64,000 bases of DNA from Rhodobacterales bacterium RIFCSPHIGHO2_02_FULL_62_130 (GTDB taxonomy: Bacteria > Pseudomonadota > Alphaproteobacteria > Rhodobacterales > Rhodobacteraceae), in assembly GCA_001828855.1 (NCBI GenBank), contig MHZT01000048.1:248001-312000 (forward strand). The letters run 5' to 3'. A program made the translations under genes and the position numbers. The notes under the pieces are model-generated. The model saw nothing but the letters and a program-made list of their open reading frames with translations, did no database searches and was not told the origin of the DNA. The first letter of the stretch is position 1, and the number at the start of each line of letters is the position of its first letter. Below are positions 2-11,206 of the stretch, piece after piece.

Positions 2-1186
2 CCGGCCTTTGCGGCCGACCCGATCCTGATCGGTGTGCCGACCGCGCAATCGGGGCCGGTGGGGGTGGCCGATCAGGCGGATTGGCTGAACGGTGTCACC
101 ATGGCCGTCGAGGAGATCAACGCGGCGGGGGGCGTGAACGGGCGGATGCTGGAAACGCGGGTGGTGGATATTGACCTGCTGACGCCGGAAGGCACGGTGG
201 CCGCGTTCCAAAGCCTGACCGAGCAGGGCGTTCACGCGCTGGCGCATTCCTTTGCGATCATTCCGCAGCCTGCGATGGATGTGGCGGCGGTGACGGGAAC
301 GCCCTATCTGCATGGCAATACCTCGCAGGCGAGCCTTGATCTGTTCAAATCGGACCCGCAGAAATACCGCAACATCTTTCAGGTCGATGTGGCAGAGACG
401 TGGTATGGTGCGGGGCTGGTGCGCTATATCTCGGACGCCAAGGCGGCGGGTTGGGCGCCCAAGAACAACCGCGTCCATATCGTGCAAGAGCAGATCGGCT
501 ATACGCAGGTGATCTCGAAGGCCACGCAGGATGCGATTGCGGCCTCGGGTGGGGAATGGGAGGTGGGGCAGATCACCGATATCCAGTTCCCCGTGCAGGA
601 TTGGTCGCCCGTCATTCAGGCGCTGAAAGAGCAGGATGCGGGCGTCATCATGATCGACCACTGGGTTGCGGCCGAGTTGGCGTCTTTTGCCAATGCCTAT
701 GTGCTGGACCCTGTGCCGGGCGCGCTGGTCTATCTGCAATATGGCCCGTCGCAGCCCGAGTTCCTTGATCTGGCAGCAGAAAATGCCGAAGGGTTTATCT
801 GGGGTTCGGTGATTGGCACCTATGCCGATGAAAAGGGTGCGGCCTTCCGCGCGGCCTATCAGGAGAAATTCCCCGGCACGATGGGGATGGTTTACACGGG
901 GTCGGGCTATGACACCGTGCATATTCTGGCGCAGGTCTGGGCCACGGTGGACCCGTCCGAATTTGATGCGGTGGGCGCGGCGATCAAAGCGATCACGTAT
1001 CGCGGGGTTTGCGGCACTTATACTTTCGCCAATGATACCAACTCTGGCACCTCTTACCCCAACCAGACCGATGATCCCGAGGCAGGTCAGGCCCATCTGA
1101 TTTTTCAGGTGCAGGATGGCGCGCACAAGATCATCGCGCCTGCCGCCTTTGCCGAGGCCGCATTCCGCCCCGCGCCCTGGATGTAA
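2..1186 (+). CDS. Amide/urea-type ABC transporter substrate-binding protein (5' end cut off)
   Basis: This is the periplasmic binding protein of the ABC importer encoded by the next four genes. The frame is open from the first bases of the window, so the true start lies upstream. The residues PAFA-ADP at the left edge look like the end of a Sec signal peptide with cleavage after AFA. What follows (IGVPTAQSG, then a region rich in VEEINAAGG) is typical of type I periplasmic binding proteins of the branched-chain amino acid/urea/short-chain amide group. About 394 residues are visible, close to full mature length. Because the operon ends in an N,N-dimethylformamidase, the ligand is probably a formamide or other small amide; that is inference from neighbours, not from binding residues. 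Confidence 0.85.
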   Translation, partial: PAFAADPILIGVPTAQSGPVGVADQADWLNGVTMAVEEINAAGGVNGRMLETRVVDIDLLTPEGTVAAFQSLTEQGVHALAHSFAIIPQPAMDVAAVTGTPYLHGNTSQASLDLFKSDPQKYRNIFQVDVAETWYGAGLVRYISDAKAAGWAPKNNRVHIVQEQIGYTQVISKATQDAIAASGGEWEVGQITDIQFPVQDWSPVIQALKEQDAGVIMIDHWVAAELASFANAYVLDPVPGALVYLQYGPSQPEFLDLAAENAEGFIWGSVIGTYADEKGAAFRAAYQEKFPGTMGMVYTGSGYDTVHILAQVWATVDPSEFDAVGAAIKAITYRGVCGTYTFANDTNSGTSYPNQTDDPEAGQAHLIFQVQDGAHKIIAPAAFAEAAFRPAPWM

Positions 1187-1195
1187 GCGCGCAGC

Positions 1196-1927
1196 ATGGC
1201 ACCCGAGGACGGCATCTTCGGTTGCCGGGGGATTGGCATATCCTTCGGCGGCCGCGCGATCCTGCGCGAGGTTTCCCTTTCCGTTTCCCACGGAGAGGTG
1301 CTTGGTCTTGTCGGTCCCAACGGGGCTGGCAAGACCAGTCTTTTTGAAATCCTGTGCGGTCGCTACACGGCCAGCGCGGGTCAGGTCTTTCTGAAAGGAC
1401 AGGACGTGACGCGCAGGGCGGTGCATGACCGTGCGCGGATGGGTCTTGCGCGCACCTATCAAAGTCCGGTGGTGCCGTCTGCCATGACGATTGCCGAAAC
1501 CTTTCGCGCGGCGCGCTATGCCTACAGGCCTTACAAGACCCGTATGGAGGCCGAATGGGCCTGCCATCTGGCGAATTTCCGGCAGCCTTGGGATCGGATC
1601 GCGGGATCACTGGACACGTTTGACCGGCGCAAGCTGTTGCTGGCCTGTCTGCTGATGCGGCGGCCTGCGGTGCTGTTGCTGGATGAACCGGCCTCGGGGC
1701 TGATCAATTCGGAAATTGACGAGTTGGACCTGATCATCCGGCGTCTGGTGGATGAATACCATATCGCGGCCATCCTGATCGAACATCGGCTGGAACTGTT
1801 GTCGGCCATCGCGGATCGGGCGGTGGTGCTGGATATGGGCGAGGTGATTGCCACCGGCACCCCGCAAGAGGTGTTCCAGAACCCGCGCGTGCTGGCCGCC
1901 TATTTCGAGGAGCCGGCGCATGGCTGA
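1196..1927 (+). CDS. ABC transporter ATP-binding protein, LivG/UrtD type, degenerate signature
   Basis: One of two nucleotide-binding subunits that would power the importer from the cytoplasmic face. It has 243 residues, Walker A GPNGAGKT at 40-47 and Walker B LLLDE at 160-164, followed by a LIEHRLELL switch region like other LivG proteins. The place where LSGGQ/LSYGQ should be (about residues 139-147) reads LDTFDRRK, so the invariant glycine is missing. The partner ATPase has a normal signature, so the dimer may have one canonical and one degenerate ATP site. The start ATG at 1196 lies 9 nt after the binding-protein stop. The 3' end overlaps the next gene by 8 nt, implying translational coupling. 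Confidence 0.88.
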   Translation: MAPEDGIFGCRGIGISFGGRAILREVSLSVSHGEVLGLVGPNGAGKTSLFEILCGRYTASAGQVFLKGQDVTRRAVHDRARMGLARTYQSPVVPSAMTIAETFRAARYAYRPYKTRMEAEWACHLANFRQPWDRIAGSLDTFDRRKLLLACLLMRRPAVLLLDEPASGLINSEIDELDLIIRRLVDEYHIAAILIEHRLELLSAIADRAVVLDMGEVIATGTPQEVFQNPRVLAAYFEEPAHG

Positions 1928-2618
1928 TATTCTGAAAATCAGCGGCCTGACCGCGGGCTACGGGCCTTTGCGCGTGCTGCACGAGATCGATTTTCGTGTG
2001 GGCGAGGGCGAGCGGGTGGGGCTTGTCGGTCTGAACGGTCACGGCAAGACCACGCTTTTCCGTGCGATTTCATCGCTGGTCGGCTGGCAATCGGGGTCGA
2101 TCCTGTTGAACGGGGCCGAAGTGGGTGGCAGCCGTTCCACCGGGCCGGGGCGGCGGACGCCTGCGATTGTGCGGGCGGGTCTGGCGATGACTCCGCAGGG
2201 GGATGCGATCTTTCCGGGGTTAAGCGTGGCGCAGCATCTGGATTGCGGGGCCTATACGCCAAAAGCATGGAAAGACCGCAAGGCGCGGCGGGATATGGTG
2301 TTCGACATCTTTCCACCGCTGCGAAAGCTGGAACATGCGCTGGTCGGGCGGCTGTCGGGGGGCGAGCGGCGGATGGTCTCGGTGGGGCGCGCGCTGATGG
2401 TGGATGCGCGGCTTTATCTGATCGACGAGCCGTCTCTGGGCCTTGCCCCCAAGATCAGCGCCAGCGTGATCGAGGCGCTGTTTGCCCTGCCGCAAGACGG
2501 GCGCGCGATGGTGATTGCCGAACAGAATGTGGCGCTGCTGTCGGGGCGGGTGGATCGCATGGTGGGGATGCACGCAGGCCGTATCCGCGGCGATGTTGGC
2601 CATGTGAGTTTGCATTGA
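1920..2618 (+). CDS. ABC transporter ATP-binding protein, LivF/UrtE type
   Basis: Second nucleotide-binding subunit of the importer, 232 residues from the ATG at 1920. The frame is open further upstream, but this ATG begins the usual MADILKISGL...GYG start of LivF proteins. Walker A GLNGHGKT is at 37-44, an intact LSGGE signature at 145-149 and Walker B LYLIDE at 165-170, with the PSLGLAP motif typical of LivF. It overlaps the upstream ATPase by 8 nt, and its stop shares one base with the start of the permease gene. Together with its partner it would hydrolyse ATP to import the amide substrate. Confidence 0.9.
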   Translation: MADILKISGLTAGYGPLRVLHEIDFRVGEGERVGLVGLNGHGKTTLFRAISSLVGWQSGSILLNGAEVGGSRSTGPGRRTPAIVRAGLAMTPQGDAIFPGLSVAQHLDCGAYTPKAWKDRKARRDMVFDIFPPLRKLEHALVGRLSGGERRMVSVGRALMVDARLYLIDEPSLGLAPKISASVIEALFALPQDGRAMVIAEQNVALLSGRVDRMVGMHAGRIRGDVGHVSLH

Positions 2619-3547
2619 TGGATATTTCAGTCACTTTTATCAACGGGTTGAACCTTGCCGCGATCTACGGGCTGATGGCGATTGGCATATCCTTGCTGTG
2701 GTCCTCGGTCGGAATGATCAACATGGCGCATGGGGCAACCTTTGCCGCCTCGGGCTATGCGGCATGGCTGGCGGCGGATGCGACCAAGGCGCTGGTGCTG
2801 GCGGCTTTTGGCAAGGGCGTGCTGACCACAAGCGTGATGGCGGGGATTACCCTGACGGCGGGGGCGGGCTTTGGCGCGCTGTTTGGCGCGGTGATCTATC
2901 TGCTGGCCTTCCTGCCGATCCATGACAAACCGAATTTTCCGGTCCGCAGCCTGATCGTGACGCTGGCGATCAACCTTGCCACGGTGCAGGGCTTGCTGTG
3001 GTATTTCGGGCCAAAGCAAAAGAACCTGCCCAAGATTTTCGGCACCGGCAAGCTGGAGGTTCTGGGCATCTCGGCCCGTTATGACCAGATCGGGGCCATC
3101 CTGGCGACGACCGTGATCCTTGGGCTGGTGCTTTTCTGGCTGCGGGTGTCGCGCAAGGGGCTGGAAATCCGCGCGATGATGCAGAACCCCGAGGGCGCGG
3201 TTCTGTCGGGCATTTCCGTGCGCTGGACCGCGCTGCCGGTGACGATGCTGACGGGGGCGCTGGCGGGGCTGGCGGCGATTTTGCTGTCGCAGACCATCTT
3301 CGTGTCGCCCACCTCTGGCACCATGCCGCTGATCAAGGGGCTGACGATTGCGCTGCTGGGCGGGCTTGGATCGGTTCCCGGTGCGGTGGCGGGGGCCATC
3401 ATCATCGGCTTTCTTGAGGCGATTGTGGGCGCGATCCCCTTCCTTGGTCAACGCTATGTGCTGTTTGCGACCTTCGTTTTCATCATTACCGTCCTGATCA
3501 TCCGCCCGCGCGGGATTGGCGGCTTGCTGGACGAGGCGCGCAAATGA
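2618..3547 (+). CDS. ABC transporter permease, LivH/UrtB type
   Basis: Integral membrane subunit of the importer, 309 residues from the ATG at 2618, which overlaps the preceding stop codon by one base. The protein is mostly hydrophobic segments, begins with the INGLNLAAIYGLMAIG segment typical of LivH and has NMAHGA near residue 35. A LLGGLGSVPGAVAGA segment near residue 250 is the usual cytoplasmic coupling region of this family. The frame runs open well upstream, but that extension belongs to the overlapping ATPase. The gene ends 4 nt inside the next permease gene. Substrate preference cannot be read from the sequence. Confidence 0.88.
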   Translation: MDISVTFINGLNLAAIYGLMAIGISLLWSSVGMINMAHGATFAASGYAAWLAADATKALVLAAFGKGVLTTSVMAGITLTAGAGFGALFGAVIYLLAFLPIHDKPNFPVRSLIVTLAINLATVQGLLWYFGPKQKNLPKIFGTGKLEVLGISARYDQIGAILATTVILGLVLFWLRVSRKGLEIRAMMQNPEGAVLSGISVRWTALPVTMLTGALAGLAAILLSQTIFVSPTSGTMPLIKGLTIALLGGLGSVPGAVAGAIIIGFLEAIVGAIPFLGQRYVLFATFVFIITVLIIRPRGIGGLLDEARK

Positions 3548-5055
3548 AGAAGTTCTACGAAATCGGTCAGCGCCCGTCGGAAATCATCCTGCATCCTGCG
3601 GGGGATAGCCCCTTGGCGCGCAGGCGCCTGCCCTTGACCCGCCGCCATCTGCTGAAATGGCGCAGCCGCACCAATCCGAAAACCCTGCAACAAGAGCGGA
3701 TGTTGGCCGACAAGCGCCCGCTGTGGTGGGCGATCGGGCTGGGGGCGCTGCTGGTGGCCGCGCCGTTCCTGTCGAACCCCATGCTGACCATCGCCGCAAT
3801 CTTTTGCATCTTTGCGGCGATCAATGTGCTGTGGACACTGGTGATCGGCACGGCGGGGATATTCTCGCTGGCGACGCTCGCCATCGTCGGCATCGGCGCC
3901 TATGCGAGTGCGGGGCTGAATATCTGGTTGGGCCTGCCGTGGCCGCTGATGTTCGTGGCGGGCGGTATTGCGGGGCTGATCGTGGGCGGCTTTCTGGCGC
4001 TGCCTTCGACGCGGCTGGACGGGTTGTATTACGCGCTGCTGACCATGGGCTTTGCCGAGATTTGCCGCGTGTTCGTCCAGCAACTCAAGGTGCTGACGCC
4101 TGCAAACGGGTCGATCAACAATGTCGGCTCTTTCATCCCTGCCGACTGGCAGTTGCAGCGGCCCGGCCTTTTGTTGGGCTTTGCGGGGGCCTTTGTCATC
4201 CTGCTGCTGGCGCTTTTGATCTTTCGCATCGTCAATTCCGAACGCCTTGGCATGTTGCTGCAAGCCGCGCGCGAGGATGAGGCCTTTGCCGAGGCCACCG
4301 GCATCGATTTCCGCCGCGCAAGGCTGCATGTGTTCCTGATCTCGTCGGCGGGGTTGGGGGTGATCGGGGCGTTTTACGCGCAGTTTTACGGATCAATCTC
4401 GCCTTCGATCTTCAGTCTTGACCAGTTGATGCTGCTGTTTGCGATGATCGTGATTGGCGGGTTGGGGCGCAGCGAGGGGGCGGTGATCGGCACCGCCATC
4501 GTGGTGCTGATCGACAAGGGCCTGCTGAACCTTGGCCCGATTCGCATTCTTCTGGTGGCGGCCCTGATGCTGGCCGTGACCCCTCTGGCCCATAACGGGC
4601 TTGTCGGCATCCGCGAGCAATTCCGGGGCTGGCGCAATCGCAAGAAATCCGAGGCGCGCGCGCGTCGCACTGAAAAGGGGGGCGAAGTCATGCCCGAGGA
4701 AGCCATCGAATTCGCGGACAAGCAGGAAATCTACTACCGGCGGTTCCAGAAACGCCTGCGCGACCGGTTGAAGGCGCTGATCACGCCCGAATTGATCGAG
4801 GAACACCGCCAGCGGCCCTTGGGGCAACATTCCGATGCGCTGAACCGGGTGTTGAACCACTTTAGGCGCGGCGAGGTGGCGGACAAATACGCGATCATGC
4901 GGCAGCCGGGGCAGTTCCATTCCTACAAGATCGTGGCCTTTTCCGGTGTGCGCGGTGCGCCGCCGCGACTGGTCGATGACAAGATATACGAGGACATCAA
5001 TCAAGCCTATCACGCCGTGTTCCTTTTGCGCGTCAATGACTTGATGGAAAGCTGA
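3544..5055 (+). CDS. LivM-type permease fused in frame to a DMFase small-subunit-like domain
   Basis: This 503-residue protein has two parts. Residues about 60-360 form a LivM/UrtC-type ABC permease with the expected hydrophobic segments and an IVIGGLGRSEGAVIG coupling region. A basic linker follows (RKKSEARARRTEKGG), then residues 383-503 form a soluble tail with LIEEH, PLG, LNRVLNHFRR, HSYKIVAF, LVDD and HAVFLLRVNDL. That tail matches, as I recall the family, the ~130-residue small (alpha) subunit of N,N-dimethylformamidase. The large-subunit gene starts 1 nt after the stop. No stop codon separates the two parts. An A4G6 run at 4673-4682 precedes ATG 4690, so internal initiation, slippage or a base-call error at the run must be considered. 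Confidence 0.85.
   Translation: MKKFYEIGQRPSEIILHPAGDSPLARRRLPLTRRHLLKWRSRTNPKTLQQERMLADKRPLWWAIGLGALLVAAPFLSNPMLTIAAIFCIFAAINVLWTLVIGTAGIFSLATLAIVGIGAYASAGLNIWLGLPWPLMFVAGGIAGLIVGGFLALPSTRLDGLYYALLTMGFAEICRVFVQQLKVLTPANGSINNVGSFIPADWQLQRPGLLLGFAGAFVILLLALLIFRIVNSERLGMLLQAAREDEAFAEATGIDFRRARLHVFLISSAGLGVIGAFYAQFYGSISPSIFSLDQLMLLFAMIVIGGLGRSEGAVIGTAIVVLIDKGLLNLGPIRILLVAALMLAVTPLAHNGLVGIREQFRGWRNRKKSEARARRTEKGGEVMPEEAIEFADKQEIYYRRFQKRLRDRLKALITPELIEEHRQRPLGQHSDALNRVLNHFRRGEVADKYAIMRQPGQFHSYKIVAFSGVRGAPPRLVDDKIYEDINQAYHAVFLLRVNDLMES
4690..5055 (+). CDS. dmfA1: DMFase small (alpha) subunit region, possible separate product from an internal start
   Basis: This is the 3' part of the permease frame, listed separately because it may be translated alone. 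ATG 4690 is in frame and preceded 7 nt upstream by AAAAGGGGGG, a strong ribosome-binding site. Initiation there would give a 121-residue protein, close to the ~130 residues of known DMFase small subunits. Its position directly before the large-subunit gene matches the dmfA1-dmfA2 order known in Paracoccus. The similarity call rests on shared motifs recalled from memory (LIEEH, FR, SYKI, HAVFL), not an alignment. Whether the protein is tethered, free or both cannot be decided here. Confidence 0.55.
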   Translation: MPEEAIEFADKQEIYYRRFQKRLRDRLKALITPELIEEHRQRPLGQHSDALNRVLNHFRRGEVADKYAIMRQPGQFHSYKIVAFSGVRGAPPRLVDDKIYEDINQAYHAVFLLRVNDLMES

Positions 5056-5056
5056 C

Positions 5057-7366
5057 ATGACCAACGCCCGCATTTTCGGCTATGCCGACCCGCTGAACGC
5101 CCGCGCTGGAGGATCGGTTGATTTCATGATCTCGGTCGAGGGCCGGGATGAGGTTGAGATGGAGCTGGTCCGCGCCCTCCATGGCGATGAAAACCCCGAT
5201 GGGCCGGGCTTTCTGGAGGAGGTCATTCCGCTGGGACTGCCGAAAACGCTGAAAGTGGCGCGGCAATTCACACAAGTCGGGTCATTCGCCCGCGCCGCTG
5301 ATCCCGAGGGGCGGCTGGATGGGCTGCAATCCTTCACCCTGTTCGCCCATGTCTTCCCGACCCTGCCCAAAGCGGAACGCCAGCAGATCATGGGGCGCTG
5401 GGATATTGAAGGATCAAAGGGCTTTGGCCTTGGCATTGATCCCGATGGCCATGTGGCGCTGTGGGTGGGCGATGGTGTGGGGGTGGATGAAATCCGCTCC
5501 GAGATCACCCTTGTGCCGCGCTGCTGGTATTTCGTGGCGGCCAGCTATGACGCAGCCTCACACGAGGCCAATCTGCACGTGATCACCTGTGTTTCGCCGT
5601 GGAACGGGCGGATTTCCACCGTGGTGCCGCTGCAAACCGACACATGGATCAGCGAAACGCTGCGCGTGACTCCGGCGGCGACCAAGGGGGCTGCCAGCTT
5701 CAAACTGGCTTCGGCCACCGCCTTTAACCCCGTGCGCGGGCATTTCGGGGCGTTTCTGTTCAATGGCAAGATCGACCGCTCCGGCGTTTACACCCGTGCC
5801 TTGGCGCGGGCCGACATTGAGGCGCTGGCCAAAGGGGCGGACCCGTCGCAGCAGGGTTTGCTGGCCTATTGGGACCCGACCGCCAACCTGACCCGCGAGG
5901 GCGTGGGCGATACAATCCCCGATACCGGCCCGCACGGGTTGCACATGCAGGGGGTGAACCGCCCTGTGCGTTGCATGACGGGGTTCAACTGGAAGGGCGA
6001 GGACAGCTATCGCCTTGCGCCGGAAACCTTTGGCGGCGTGCATTACCATGATGATGCGATGACCGATTGCGGCTGGCAGGTCAGCTATTCCCTGACCCTG
6101 CCGGGCAGCCTGAAATCCGGCGTCTACTGCCTGCGCCTGCGGGGTGGCGGGGCCGAGGACCATATTCCCTTCATTGTGCGGCCCGCGAAACCAAAGGCAA
6201 AAATCGCCTTCCTGCTGCCGACCTTTACCTATCTGGCCTATGCCAACGAACATCTGGCCTATGAGGCCCCCATCGCGCAGGCGATCACCGCCCATACGCC
6301 GGTGATCGTGGCCGAGGATCTGGAATACAAGAAGCTGGAGGAATTCGGCCTTTCCACCTACGACCACCACACCGATGGCGCGGGGTGCTGCTATTCGTCG
6401 TGGCGGCGGCCCGTGATCTCGATGCGGCCACGTTACCGGATGCCGGCGATGAACTTTCCTTGGGCGCTGCCGGCGGATCTGTCGCTGATCTGGTGGCTGG
6501 ATCATGCCGGTTATGAGTATGATCTGCTGACCGACCACGACCTGCACGCCGAAGGCGCGGCGGCGCTGGCGCCCTATAAGGTGGTGCTGAACGGCACGCA
6601 TCCGGAATATTATTCCGAACAGATGATGGACGGGACCGAGGCCTATCTGGCCGCAGGGGGCCGCGTCATGTATCTGGGCGGCAACGGTTATTACTGGGTG
6701 ACCGGCACCCGTGAAGATGCGCCGCATTGCATCGAGGTTCGCAAGCTGGACAGCGGCTCGCGCGCGTGGCAGGCCGAACCGGGCGAGGGCTATCTGGCCT
6801 CGACCGGGCAGAAATCGGGGCTGTGGCGCAACCGCGGCCGCGCGCCGCAAAAGATCGTGGGCCTAGGTTTCACCACCGAGGGCATGGACGAAAGCCAGCC
6901 CTTTGAGCGGATGCCCGACAGTTTCCACCGCCGTGCATCGTGGATCATGGAGGGGGTTGGCGACGAGGAGTTGATCGGCGATTTCGGCCTTGCCGGTGGC
7001 GGGGCGGGCGGCATCGAATTGGACCGCTATGAGCTGGGCTTGGGAACGCCGCCGCATACCCTGTTGCTGGCGGCGACCATCGGCCATTCCGACAACTACC
7101 CGCTTGTGTCCGAGGAAGTGACCTATGCTTTTCCCGGCAGGGGCGGCACGCAGGACGCGCAGGTGCGCGGCGATATGATCTATTTCACCACCCCGAACCA
7201 AGGTGCGGTGTTCGCGGCGGGGTCGATTGCGTGGTCACAGGCCCTGCCCTGCAAGGGCGGCGAAAACAACGTCGCTCGAATCATGCGTAACGTGTTAAAT
7301 GCTTTCCTGAAGGATGGCGATTTGCCGGGTAGCCAGTTTACGGGCGACGAAAAGCTGTGGCGCTAG
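5057..7366 (+). CDS. dmfA2: N,N-dimethylformamidase large (beta) subunit
   Basis: DMFase hydrolyses N,N-dimethylformamide to formate and dimethylamine using a mononuclear iron held by two tyrosines and a glutamate. This 769-residue protein is close to the known ~760-residue large subunit. Residues about 90-250 look like a LamG/jelly-roll domain (FTLFAHVFP, GRWDIEG, WYFVAASYD). The catalytic half contains THPEYYS with His515 and Glu517, then GGNGYYW with Asn543; this His-x-Glu...Asn spacing equals that recalled for the Paracoccus active site. Tyr395 (LAYANEH) and Tyr435 (TYDHH) are the likely tyrosine ligands. It starts 1 nt after the small-subunit-like domain. The true substrate could be another N-methylated amide. 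Confidence 0.88.
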   Translation: MTNARIFGYADPLNARAGGSVDFMISVEGRDEVEMELVRALHGDENPDGPGFLEEVIPLGLPKTLKVARQFTQVGSFARAADPEGRLDGLQSFTLFAHVFPTLPKAERQQIMGRWDIEGSKGFGLGIDPDGHVALWVGDGVGVDEIRSEITLVPRCWYFVAASYDAASHEANLHVITCVSPWNGRISTVVPLQTDTWISETLRVTPAATKGAASFKLASATAFNPVRGHFGAFLFNGKIDRSGVYTRALARADIEALAKGADPSQQGLLAYWDPTANLTREGVGDTIPDTGPHGLHMQGVNRPVRCMTGFNWKGEDSYRLAPETFGGVHYHDDAMTDCGWQVSYSLTLPGSLKSGVYCLRLRGGGAEDHIPFIVRPAKPKAKIAFLLPTFTYLAYANEHLAYEAPIAQAITAHTPVIVAEDLEYKKLEEFGLSTYDHHTDGAGCCYSSWRRPVISMRPRYRMPAMNFPWALPADLSLIWWLDHAGYEYDLLTDHDLHAEGAAALAPYKVVLNGTHPEYYSEQMMDGTEAYLAAGGRVMYLGGNGYYWVTGTREDAPHCIEVRKLDSGSRAWQAEPGEGYLASTGQKSGLWRNRGRAPQKIVGLGFTTEGMDESQPFERMPDSFHRRASWIMEGVGDEELIGDFGLAGGGAGGIELDRYELGLGTPPHTLLLAATIGHSDNYPLVSEEVTYAFPGRGGTQDAQVRGDMIYFTTPNQGAVFAAGSIAWSQALPCKGGENNVARIMRNVLNAFLKDGDLPGSQFTGDEKLWR

Positions 7367-7491: not shown

Positions 7492-7512
7492 TCGGAACCG
7501 GGTGGGGTGGCC

Positions 7513-8490
7513 ATGAGCCTTGGCATTGCCAGCTTTTCGCGGTTCATCGCGCAGATGAATGATCGGGTGCGGACCGAGGATGCCGAAGGGCTGGCGCGCT
7601 GGGCGGTGCAGGATTTGTCGCAGACGCTGGGCTTTGATGCGGCGTGGTATGGCTGGGCGCAATTGCTGCCGGAAGGCGTGCAGATCTATGCCAATGCCAC
7701 GGTGAATCTGCCGGACGGGTTCTATGACTACTGGCGCACCATGTCGGATCAGGATTTGCTGGCGCGCAGCATGATCGAAAACCCCGGCCAAACCGCGCTT
7801 TATGATCGCAAGCAGGGGCGGCAGACGGATGGCATGGTGGGATTGTCCGACACCTTCGGGCTTGCCAAGATTATCACCGCCATGCACGGACGTCCGGGGC
7901 GGGTGACCTCGTTCTACCTATCCAGCTATCGGGTCGGGGCGACGGGGCGGGCCTGGTCCGAGGAAGAGCGCGACTATCTGCAATGCGCCGTCGATCATTT
8001 GTCAGGGGCGATGAAGCTGACCACCACCGAGCCGGGGCGACCCAATCCGGCGGGGGCTGTTACGATTCTGGTGAATGAAAACGGCATGGGAATCCTGGGC
8101 CTGTCCGCGCTGCGCGAGCAGATGGGCGAGATCTGGCCAAGCTGGCAGGGCGATCATCTGCCCGAGCAGCTTTCGCGGCTGATCAACCTGCCAGGCCAGC
8201 ATATCCTGCCAGATCGGGATCTGGTGGTGCTGGTGGATCAGCCCCCGCGCTTTCAGGGCATGGGGTTGCGGCGGTTGACGCTGCGACGGCTGAACCCTGT
8301 CGATATGTTGACCAACCGCGAGCGCGAGGTTGCCCGTGCCTTGTCGGATGGCAAAAGCCACAAAGAGGTCGCGCGTCTGTTGGGGCTGGCTCCGGCGACG
8401 GTGCGGAACCAGACCCAGAGCATCTATGCCAAGCTGGGCGTGGACAATCGCGCCAACCTTGCCGCAATGGTCAATCAGGTCCGCCCTTGA
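7513..8490 (+). CDS. dmfR: LuxR-family transcriptional regulator, DmfR-like
   Basis: A 325-residue regulator with a C-terminal LuxR helix-turn-helix (LTNREREVARALSDG...SHKEVARLLGL...VRNQTQSIYAKLGV, roughly residues 262-320). The N-terminal ~200 residues resemble a GAF/autoinducer-type sensor (LGFDAAWYGW, YYWRTMSDQD-like region). In Paracoccus a LuxR-family protein, DmfR, activates the DMFase genes; the position directly after the DMFase operon supports the same role here. ATG 7513 is preferred over GTG 7507 because it follows the GGGTGGGG stretch at usable spacing. No luxI-type synthase is nearby, so the ligand is more likely an amide than an acyl-homoserine lactone. Its last 20 nt overlap the convergent hydrolase gene. 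Confidence 0.8.
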   Translation: MSLGIASFSRFIAQMNDRVRTEDAEGLARWAVQDLSQTLGFDAAWYGWAQLLPEGVQIYANATVNLPDGFYDYWRTMSDQDLLARSMIENPGQTALYDRKQGRQTDGMVGLSDTFGLAKIITAMHGRPGRVTSFYLSSYRVGATGRAWSEEERDYLQCAVDHLSGAMKLTTTEPGRPNPAGAVTILVNENGMGILGLSALREQMGEIWPSWQGDHLPEQLSRLINLPGQHILPDRDLVVLVDQPPRFQGMGLRRLTLRRLNPVDMLTNREREVARALSDGKSHKEVARLLGLAPATVRNQTQSIYAKLGVDNRANLAAMVNQVRP

Positions 8491-9862: not shown

Positions 9863-11206
9863 ATGACGAAACGTGTGGCAGTAATCGGGGCGGGTCCGTC
9901 CGGTCTGGCGCAACTGCGGGCTTTCCAGTCCGCCAAAGCCAAGGGCGCCGAAATTCCCGAGATTGTCTGCTTTGAAAAGCAGGACAACTGGGGCGGGCTG
10001 TGGAATTACACATGGCGCACCGGTCTGGATGAATATGGCGAGCCTGTGCATTGCTCAATGTATCGCTATCTGTGGTCGAACGGCCCGAAAGAGGGGCTGG
10101 AGTTTGCCGATTATTCCTTTGAGGAACATTTCGGCAAGCAGATCGCCAGCTATCCGCCGCGCGCGGTGCTGTTCGACTATATCGAAGGCCGTGTGAAAAA
10201 GGCACAGGTGCGTGACTGGATTCGCTTCCGCCATCCGGTGCGCTTTGTGAAATACAATGCCGACAAGGGCAATTTCACCGTCACCGCGCATGATCTGAAA
10301 GCCGACAGCATGTATGAGGAAGAGTTCGACAACGTGATCGTTGCATCGGGCCACTTCTCAACCCCGAACGTGCCGGAATATCCGGGGTTCGACAAATTCG
10401 GTGGCCGCGTGCTGCATGCCCATGATTTCCGCGACGCGATGGAGTTCAACGGCAAGGATATCCTGCTGCTGGGGTCTTCCTATTCCGCCGAGGATATCGG
10501 ATCGCAGTGCTGGAAATACGGGGCCAAGTCGATCACGGTGGCCTACCGCAATGCGCCTATGGGGTTCAACTGGCCGGACAACTGGAAAGAGGTTCCCGCG
10601 CTGGATCACGTGGATGAGACCACGGCCTATTTCAAGGATGGCACCTCGAAGAAGGTGGACGCGATCATCCTTTGCACCGGCTACAAGCATCACTTCCCGT
10701 TCCTGCCGGATGATCTGCGGCTGAAAACGGCGAACCGGCTGGCGGCGGCGGATCTGTATAAGGGCGTGGCCTGGGTTCACAATCCGAAGCTGTTCTATGT
10801 CGGCATGCAGGACCAGTGGTTCACCTTCAACATGTTCGACGCGCAGGCGTGGTGGGTGCGCGATGCGATCATGGGGCGGATTGCTATTCCGGCGGACAAG
10901 GCCGTGCTGCAGCAGGATGTGGCGGACCGTGTCGCGGGCGAGGATGCGGGCAAGGATGCCCATGATGCGATCCACTATCAGGGCGATTACGTGAAAGAGC
11001 TGATCGCCGAGACGGACTATCCGTCCTTTGATGTGGACGGGGCTTGCGAGGCGTTCTTCGAATGGAAGGACCACAAGGCGGCGGGGATCATGGAGTTCCG
11101 CAACCATGCCTACCGGTCGGTCATCACCGGCACGATGGCCCCGATCCATCACACGCCTTGGAAGGACGCGCTGGAGGACAGCATGGAAGCCTATCTGCGG
11201 AACTGA
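9863..11206 (+). CDS. tmm: Trimethylamine monooxygenase (flavin-containing monooxygenase)
   Basis: Tmm oxidises trimethylamine to trimethylamine N-oxide using FAD, NADPH and O2. The 447-residue length fits bacterial Tmm. The FAD site GAGPSG is at residues 9-14; the FMO signature region reads [11 protein letters not shown]; the NADPH site is GSSYSAED; and a C-terminal [11 protein letters not shown] matches the FMO TGY motif. Start ATG 9863 follows GGGAG at good spacing; upstream codons in frame lack a ribosome-binding site. The gene is single, with its own promoter and a double terminator. Its product feeds the TMAO demethylase encoded at 33425. A broader substrate range, as in other FMOs, is possible. 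Confidence 0.92.

Follow-up and report, generated by a model that had tools for sequence, protein, structure and literature searches.

Can an importer carry, in its own polypeptide, part of the enzyme that consumes its cargo? The question is raised by a 64,000-nucleotide stretch of Rhodobacterales bacterium RIFCSPHIGHO2_02_FULL_62_130 (contig MHZT01000048.1, positions 248,001 to 312,000; hereafter the window). Its plus-strand open reading frame (ORF) at 3544-5055 encodes a LivM-type permease of an ATP-binding cassette (ABC) importer and continues into the small subunit of N,N-dimethylformamidase (DMFase).

The fused gene and its parts

To answer this question, we examined the frame itself. A preliminary description had read it as an uninterrupted frame comprising a LivM permease, a basic linker and a tail bearing four motifs. 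This was confirmed: the ORF begins with ATG, encodes 503 amino acids without an internal stop and includes LIEEH, NHFRR, HSYKI and HAVFL in its tail. A ribosome reading the gene to its stop makes the joined protein, barring a frame shift. The frame is one protein, made up of a LivM-type ABC permease, a basic linker and a DMFase small subunit, with the following parts.

3544..5055, + strand: LivM permease::DMFase small subunit, a single 503-residue protein identified by Pfam, phmmer and Foldseek, with 39 further loci
3544..4593, + strand: permease part (residues 1-60, basic N-terminal extension; residues 61-350, membrane core)
4594..4689, + strand: basic linker, residues 351-382 (NGLVGIREQFRGWRNRKKSEARARRTEKGGEV), gap-free in 25 aligned rows
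4673..4686, + strand: Shine-Dalgarno (SD)-like AAAAGGGGGGCGAA, doubling as the KGGE codons, with an anti-SD core pairing of -9.6 kcal/mol
4690..4692, + strand: junction ATG, candidate internal start of a free 121-residue small subunit (ATG here or one codon earlier in 33 of 40 loci)
4690..5055, + strand: DMFase small-subunit domain, residues 383-503, matched to 6lvb_B by phmmer, profile and Foldseek

The permease assignment rests on Pfam BPD_transp_2 (PF02653), which covers residues 81-345 (profile positions 3-268 of 269, E=1.4e-27). The fusion scores below the curated NCBIfam cutoffs for both LivM (80.4 against 366 bits) and UrtC (60.3 against 296.2 bits). The basic N-terminal extension is also present in relatives. 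Hydropathy analysis of the membrane topology gave segments that overlapped, from which helices could not be counted.

Neither Pfam (above cutoff) nor NCBIfam matches the tail (residues 383-503), which was identified by other comparisons. A phmmer search matched it to 6lvb_B, the small subunit of Paracoccus DMFase (E=3.4e-8). With a profile built from eleven fused tails, 6lvb_B was the sole PDB sequence at E<=0.01 (E=8.9e-16). The predicted fold of the linker end and tail had a mean predicted local distance difference test score (pLDDT) of 80, and a Foldseek search with the tail model at E<=0.001 returned only 6lvv_B, 6lvb_B and 6lvd_B (template modelling (TM) scores 0.66-0.75; E=1e-6 to 7.5e-6), with 6lvb_B itself at E=1.6e-6 and TM 0.66/0.73. 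The earlier assignment of the tail to DMFase thus stands. Here the small subunit is fused to LivM, unlike a DMFase small subunit encoded by a gene of its own.

A search of other genomes recovered the same fusion at 39 further tabulated loci. In all 40, the window included, the two parts share one frame, with neither a stop nor a frameshift between them; entry into this table was by the junction motif, such that a broken copy lacking the motif would escape it.

The partner subunit and the likely substrate

The fusion ends one base before the gene of its putative partner, as the preliminary description had placed it: the TGA stop occupies 5053-5055 and the large-subunit ATG follows at 5057. Operon order is fixed, with a binding protein, two ATPases and LivH (genes 35-3547 in the window; relatives alike) followed by LivM::small and then the large subunit.

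5057..7366, + strand: DMFase large subunit (6lvb_A, E=2.3e-181; Pfam DMFA2_C, E=3.9e-95)
7507..8490, + strand: LuxR-family regulator (Pfam GerE, E=9.8e-14), adjoining the large subunit in many relatives
35..1186, + strand: periplasmic substrate-binding protein, Peripla_BP_6 (Pfam PF13458, E=1.1e-29)
1196..1927, + strand: LivG-type ABC ATPase (Pfam ABC_tran, E=2.8e-24; NCBIfam LivG, E=1.6e-46, below the curated cutoff)
1920..2618, + strand: LivF-type second ABC ATPase (ORF 1848-2618, start set at the Met of MADILK; equivalent gene in relatives)
2618..3547, + strand: LivH-type permease (Pfam BPD_transp_2, E=8.2e-31, for ORF 2243-3547; putative start at the Met of MDISV)

The signal peptide of the binding protein appears to cross the left edge of the window, where the frame before base 35 reads PAFAADPILIG...

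DMFase is the best PDB match of the large subunit, which retains Y395, Y435, E517, H515 and N543, equivalent to Y399, Y440, E521, H519 and N547 of 6lvb. A report on the Paracoccus enzyme names Y399, Y440 and E521 as iron ligands and H519 and N547 as further active-site residues (PMC7686228). It also describes the Paracoccus large subunit as inactive without the small one, and places the N-terminal helix of the small subunit at the interface between large subunits. Of 50 large-subunit rows, drawn from both fused and unfused operons, 45 keep all five residues.

Beside the DMFase operon, at 9794-30807, lies an island of methylated-amine genes. It encodes a trimethylamine monooxygenase (NF058570, E=1e-250), a type III glutamine synthetase (TIGR03105), the dimethylamine monooxygenase DmmA (PF22290, E=2.1e-34), a haem-dependent N-demethylase alpha subunit (PF11927), and GcvT-like and sarcosine-oxidase-like proteins. 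We take the glutamine synthetase to be of the GmaS kind. Dimethylamine, which is the amine released from N,N-dimethylformamide (DMF), could be used through the genes of this island.

The substrate is likely DMF or a close N-methyl formamide. The alternative that survives best retains the same importer and enzyme and assigns them another N-alkyl or short-chain amide, which we consider quite possible without being probable. It is favored by the presence of N-acetyl-(R)-beta-phenylalanine acylase among the large-subunit relatives (8huy, E=2.1e-110), and by an Aminobacter plasmid operon that adjoins propionyl-CoA synthetase and haloacid dehalogenase genes. Also weighing against DMF is the unfused pair of pAMI5, 34% and 40% identical to DmfA1 and DmfA2, which its description does not tie to DMF use (PMC4543880). 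Among the stretches fetched, moreover, methylamine-type genes stand beside the fusion only in L141 and L143 besides the window. Against another amide stand the conserved iron ligands and catalytic residues, the top PDB match to DMFase, the dimethylamine genes within the window and the LuxR-family neighbor, as at dmfA1A2 on pAMI2. The last of these is weak as support for DMF, since the window and pAMI2 regulators align locally over 54 residues only (31% identity).

Two side observations concern related operons. Another contig of the window genome carries an unfused small-large DMFase-like pair (G000:C2:24694-24954; L002, L101), with a large subunit at 35% identity, next to what appears by eye to be a polyamine-type ABC binding-protein gene. 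In L138, which comes from one of the two genomes outside the window's class, an ORF at 9915-11045 between the fusion and the large gene looks porin-like by eye, with a signal-peptide-like start; a Pfam scan of it gave no match. Such a porin would fit uptake of a small solute.

A candidate internal start at the junction

The preliminary description had proposed that the importer may carry half of its enzyme. The joined frame makes this credible, and features of the junction suggest that probably not all of the small subunit is held in this way. An ATG follows the G-rich KGGE codons in 33 of 40 fused loci. Its position differs by clade, reading KGGExM in one and, one codon earlier, KGGEM in the other, and both genomes outside the window's class retain it. 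The anti-SD pairing found at the window junction (-9.6 kcal/mol) is reached by 3.4% of the 495 codon positions in the gene; seven annotated starts of free small genes range from -5.9 to -11.2 kcal/mol.

Separate small-subunit genes were found in 7 of 39 testable fused operons. Their distribution follows the junction codon: all six testable loci without the ATG have one, compared to 1 of 33 loci with it (Fisher p=2e-6, uncorrected for kinship). L182, whose contig ends just past the fusion, falls outside the six, and L089, which ends inside the large gene, was counted among the 33 as lacking a second gene. The first no-ATG loci seen, L007 and L049, both have a separate small gene in the operon. 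The family search contributed a third no-ATG locus with such a gene (L157) and an ATG locus with one too (L161), giving 3/3 against 1/27 before directed genus searches (p=0.001). The genus of L157 was then searched because a second gene had been seen there, and the later counts are not a random sample; this search yielded L178, L179 and L181, all three lacking the ATG and carrying a separate small gene.

Codon usage and ancestry show related patterns. Of the 33 ATG loci, 26 have GGG or GGA as the first Gly codon, compared to none of the 7 no-ATG loci; L161 has GGC. Pairing energy had a median of -9.8 kcal/mol in the 32 ATG loci that lack a second gene and of -6.1 kcal/mol in the eight loci that have one, L182 being placed among the eight by assumption from its likeness to L181 (182 of 200 end residues alike). 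A fusion tree of 38 of the 40 rows (the shortened rows L181 and L183 omitted) requires two changes of ATG state, on its starred branches, and trees with a single change made up 0 of 200 bootstraps. This tree is midpoint-rooted, and we infer that the changes are losses. L161, which has both the ATG and a second small gene, clusters with a no-ATG pair (support 95/91), as if the second gene had preceded loss of the ATG. A tree of the small domain was also built, omitting three duplicates and one short row of 70.

A start-like site at the junction, together with second small genes where that site is missing, points to an additional free form. The gene probably yields free small subunit besides the fusion.

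The alternative is that the operon has no source of small subunit other than the tethered one. The junction Met and KGGE would then be protein features, a hinge before a long first helix, and the second small genes would be unrelated duplications. We judge this unlikely, and several observations nevertheless support it and weigh against an internal start. In the tail model, KGGE falls where confidence is low, in a break separating predicted helices 2-12 and 19-47, and may simply form a hinge between them. The SD-like stretch of the window equals the expectation from synonymous shuffles (p=0.57), and no depression of synonymous variation was found at the KGGE codons; over the 25 rows the shuffles gave a mixed result, with p<0.05 in 9 and p<0.06 in 10. 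Pairing at junctions without the ATG spans -5.9 to -10.1 kcal/mol, values that real starts also show, such that strength alone fails to separate them, and L178 bears at the site a TTG, still a possible start. The order fusion-large-small-large in L157, L161 and L181 could reflect duplication of the enzyme, and in one of the two no-ATG lineages the second small gene is accompanied by a second large gene. Finally, three of the six no-ATG loci (L178, L179 and L181) came from the directed search, and the two changes of ATG state both fall in one half of the tree. What argues against a fusion-only operon is that the Met occupies two different codons in two clades, that only lineages possessing a second small gene lack it (6/6 testable compared to 1/33), and that its state changed twice independently.

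Fused operons with two large genes (L046, L157, L161 and L181) showed a further pattern. In each, the five active-site residues are intact in just one large copy, and at least one of them is replaced in the other (L046, E to A; L157 and L181, Y to C; L161, Y to L together with H to R), as if an inactive partner had been retained.

Distribution of the fusion and selection on the junction

Fusion hosts include alphaproteobacteria, conjugative-typed plasmids and two genomes outside the window's class, and identity to the window ranges from 48 to 93% where measured. The full fusion was found in 5 of 295 genomes of a family-level sample, 2 of 292 at the order level, 2 of 385 at the class level and 3 of 398 at the phylum level, one of the last outside the class; the window genome is counted in each of these samples, which overlap. 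Additional searches found the fusion in 6 of 149, 1 of 180, 6 of 16, 2 of 3, 1 of 1 and 2 of 70 genomes. A species scan found 13 loci in Tabrizicola, Rhodobacter, Phaeobacter, Nitratireductor, Hoeflea, Bradyrhizobium and metagenome-assembled genomes (MAGs). Twelve are near full length (residues 4-503 or more), while the thirteenth ends at a contig end, L045 being cut before the junction. At E<=1e-40, query coverage is 80% or more in all 26 plasmid records; a single permease annotation lies under the match in 24, and the other two are unannotated. Its presence on plasmids, together with the mixing of host families in the tree, suggests transfer of the operon as a whole.

Selection was assessed from the ratio of nonsynonymous to synonymous substitution rates (dN/dS) over 25 rows, which represent 23 distinct records (duplicate pairs L004/L035 and L006/L037). 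Linker and junction residues 351-389 have zero gaps in these rows. Residues 366-389, a segment picked after the alignment was viewed, gave the lowest dN/dS of any segment, with medians of 0.047 for dN and 0.082 for dN/dS (159 of 300 pairs with 0<dS<3); dS approached or exceeded 1 in much of the data. The other segments had a higher median dN/dS, at 0.236 in the membrane core (279 pairs), 0.221 in the small domain (269 pairs), 0.201 in linker residues 351-392 (207 pairs) and 0.423 in the N-terminal extension (257 pairs). The motif KGGE..PEEA is present in 40 of 40 fused loci, and PEEA is missing from nine unfused small subunits (alignment A1). By these substitution rates the junction is shown to be under purifying selection. 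Low junction dN/dS, a constant linker and PEEA are what is expected if selection sees a continuous protein.

These data bear on whether the two parts were joined by fortuitous loss of a stop codon, without functional coupling, the tail being cleaved off or acting as a free subunit would. The Paracoccus small subunit does work as a separate protein (PMC7686228). Moreover, the class-level sample contains a small-subunit match in 38 of 385 genomes, and 36 of those 38 carry it unfused to a permease. Against this stand the 40 loci with identities down to 48% where measured, the constant linker and a dN/dS that is lowest at the junction. Nor was a close permease without the tail found among the matches listed: in the family, phylum and order samples, where the best three to five candidates per genome were scored, the next permeases reached at most 113, 110.6 and 115.3 bits, respectively, compared to at least 498 for fused proteins. 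We regard chance joining as very improbable. That the fusion is an assembly or sequencing artefact we consider next to impossible: the junction homopolymer AAAAGGGGGG could conceal a frameshift, but the tabulated relatives share the frame, which is identical in 40 loci from isolates, MAGs and plasmids, and one permease annotation spans the match in 24 of 26 plasmid records.

Other candidate fusions in the class-level sample were rejected. Apart from genomes G000 and G295, eight frames with a small-subunit match reach at least 277 residues (L088 and L090-L096), and none has a LivM match. In seven of these, the upstream stretch is without a Pfam match and was judged a chance open frame. The other, L092 (G628:C187, 4750-7326), encodes small::large DMFase as a single chain, another fusion solution. 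The remaining small-subunit matches of this sample lie in open frames of at most 216 residues. An 'inner-membrane translocator' of Halalkalicoccus jeotgali was likewise ruled out as a fusion, being a separate 180-residue small subunit with in-frame stops just upstream. This plasmid gene (L050, 8779-9321) provides an archaeal example of a separate small subunit, and its name was probably carried over from the fusion.

Proposed mechanism

Our preferred reading is that the LivM of an amide importer carries the small subunit, that the large subunit docks on it and cuts the amide at the channel exit, and that free small subunit is made from the junction start as well. We hold this to be fairly probable. 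The C-terminus of LivM is presumably cytoplasmic, as expected for the family, and the basic linker also suggests a cytoplasmic tail. This orientation would place the small subunit on the cytoplasmic side. Each transporter has one LivM, and so would display one tethered small subunit, available for docking of a large subunit. DMF, small and neutral, could leak back through the membrane; if promptly cleaved to formate and dimethylammonium, it would be trapped as ionic products. The joined protein and its basic linker make tethering at the inner membrane face credible, and tethering by itself is probably an incomplete account. Weighing against the preferred reading, the model of the full-length fusion is poor (pLDDT 54.9) and was left out of the fold search.

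An internal start at the junction, formed by the SD-like KGGE stretch and the ATG, would release free small subunit for a soluble enzyme. Whether from this start or from a second gene, free small subunit would allow the enzyme to exceed the number of transporters, and tethered and free small subunits may share one dimer. A more detailed version holds that one gene gives rise to both an importer-fused and a free form of an essential subunit. Lineages that gained a second small gene would then have lost the internal start, which would imply that both forms are needed, and the two would pair in the dimer as an import-hydrolyse complex. For this version our confidence is slightly lower, leaning only modestly in its favor.

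If correct, this reading makes the gene a physical link between an ABC importer and the enzyme acting on its cargo, a simple natural metabolon for a compound that crosses membranes and would otherwise leak back, and the coupling of import to the first catabolic step becomes directly testable in one operon. It would also mean that 'branched-chain amino acid ABC transporter permease' annotations, as in 24 of the 26 plasmid records, mask an enzyme subunit, and that a probable amide-degradation system goes unnoticed by automatic annotation in many bacteria and conjugative-typed plasmids.

Relation to known systems

The enzyme resembles Paracoccus DMFase, DmfA1/DmfA2 (6lvb; dmfA1-dmfA2 on pAMI2), in its subunits, active-site residues, small-large gene order and LuxR-family neighbor. 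In Paracoccus, the small subunit is a separate gene with no importer gene listed alongside, whereas here it is fused. The importer shares with LivFGHM and urea-type ABC importers (BPD_transp_2) the permease family and the order of binding protein, two ATPases, LivH and LivM. It differs from them in the C-terminal enzyme subunit, the basic N-terminal extension and scores below the curated LivM/UrtC cutoffs.

The preliminary description knew of no example of such coupling. This holds for ABC importers as far as we found: in the open-access literature, no report was found in which a DMFase subunit is fused to a permease, or in which an ABC importer permease carries a subunit of a catabolic hydrolase, and this absence is not proof. 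It does not hold for transporters in general. SulP::carbonic anhydrase, which we take to combine a secondary transporter with a whole enzyme, is a precedent. One source, citing Felce and Saier 2004, describes it as a transporter fused in frame to the enzyme of its substrate (PMC6458275). Compared with that description, the present fusion likewise has one frame and conservation, both observed, and its importer cargo is predicted only; it joins an ABC permease to an essential subunit without the iron site.

LplT-Aas offers another parallel. In one report, the transporter and the next enzyme are separate in some bacteria and one ORF in others, acting in lysophospholipid flipping and acylation; natural fusions are called uncharacterised there, and an artificial fusion disrupted LplT expression (PMC11416262). 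The likeness is the single ORF for transporter and enzyme, and the difference is the lysophospholipid chemistry.

The proposed pairing of joined and free forms also has a counterpart. The short form of SpaO, we assume, arises from an internal start. Its C-terminal domain is produced as part of the long form and also by itself, and joins one assembly (PMC13059759). SpaO is no transporter, and the internal start is only predicted for the present gene. The enzyme, the importer family and the idea of transporter-enzyme fusion were thus already known; what is new, as far as we found, is the union of an ABC importer permease with an essential hydrolase subunit.

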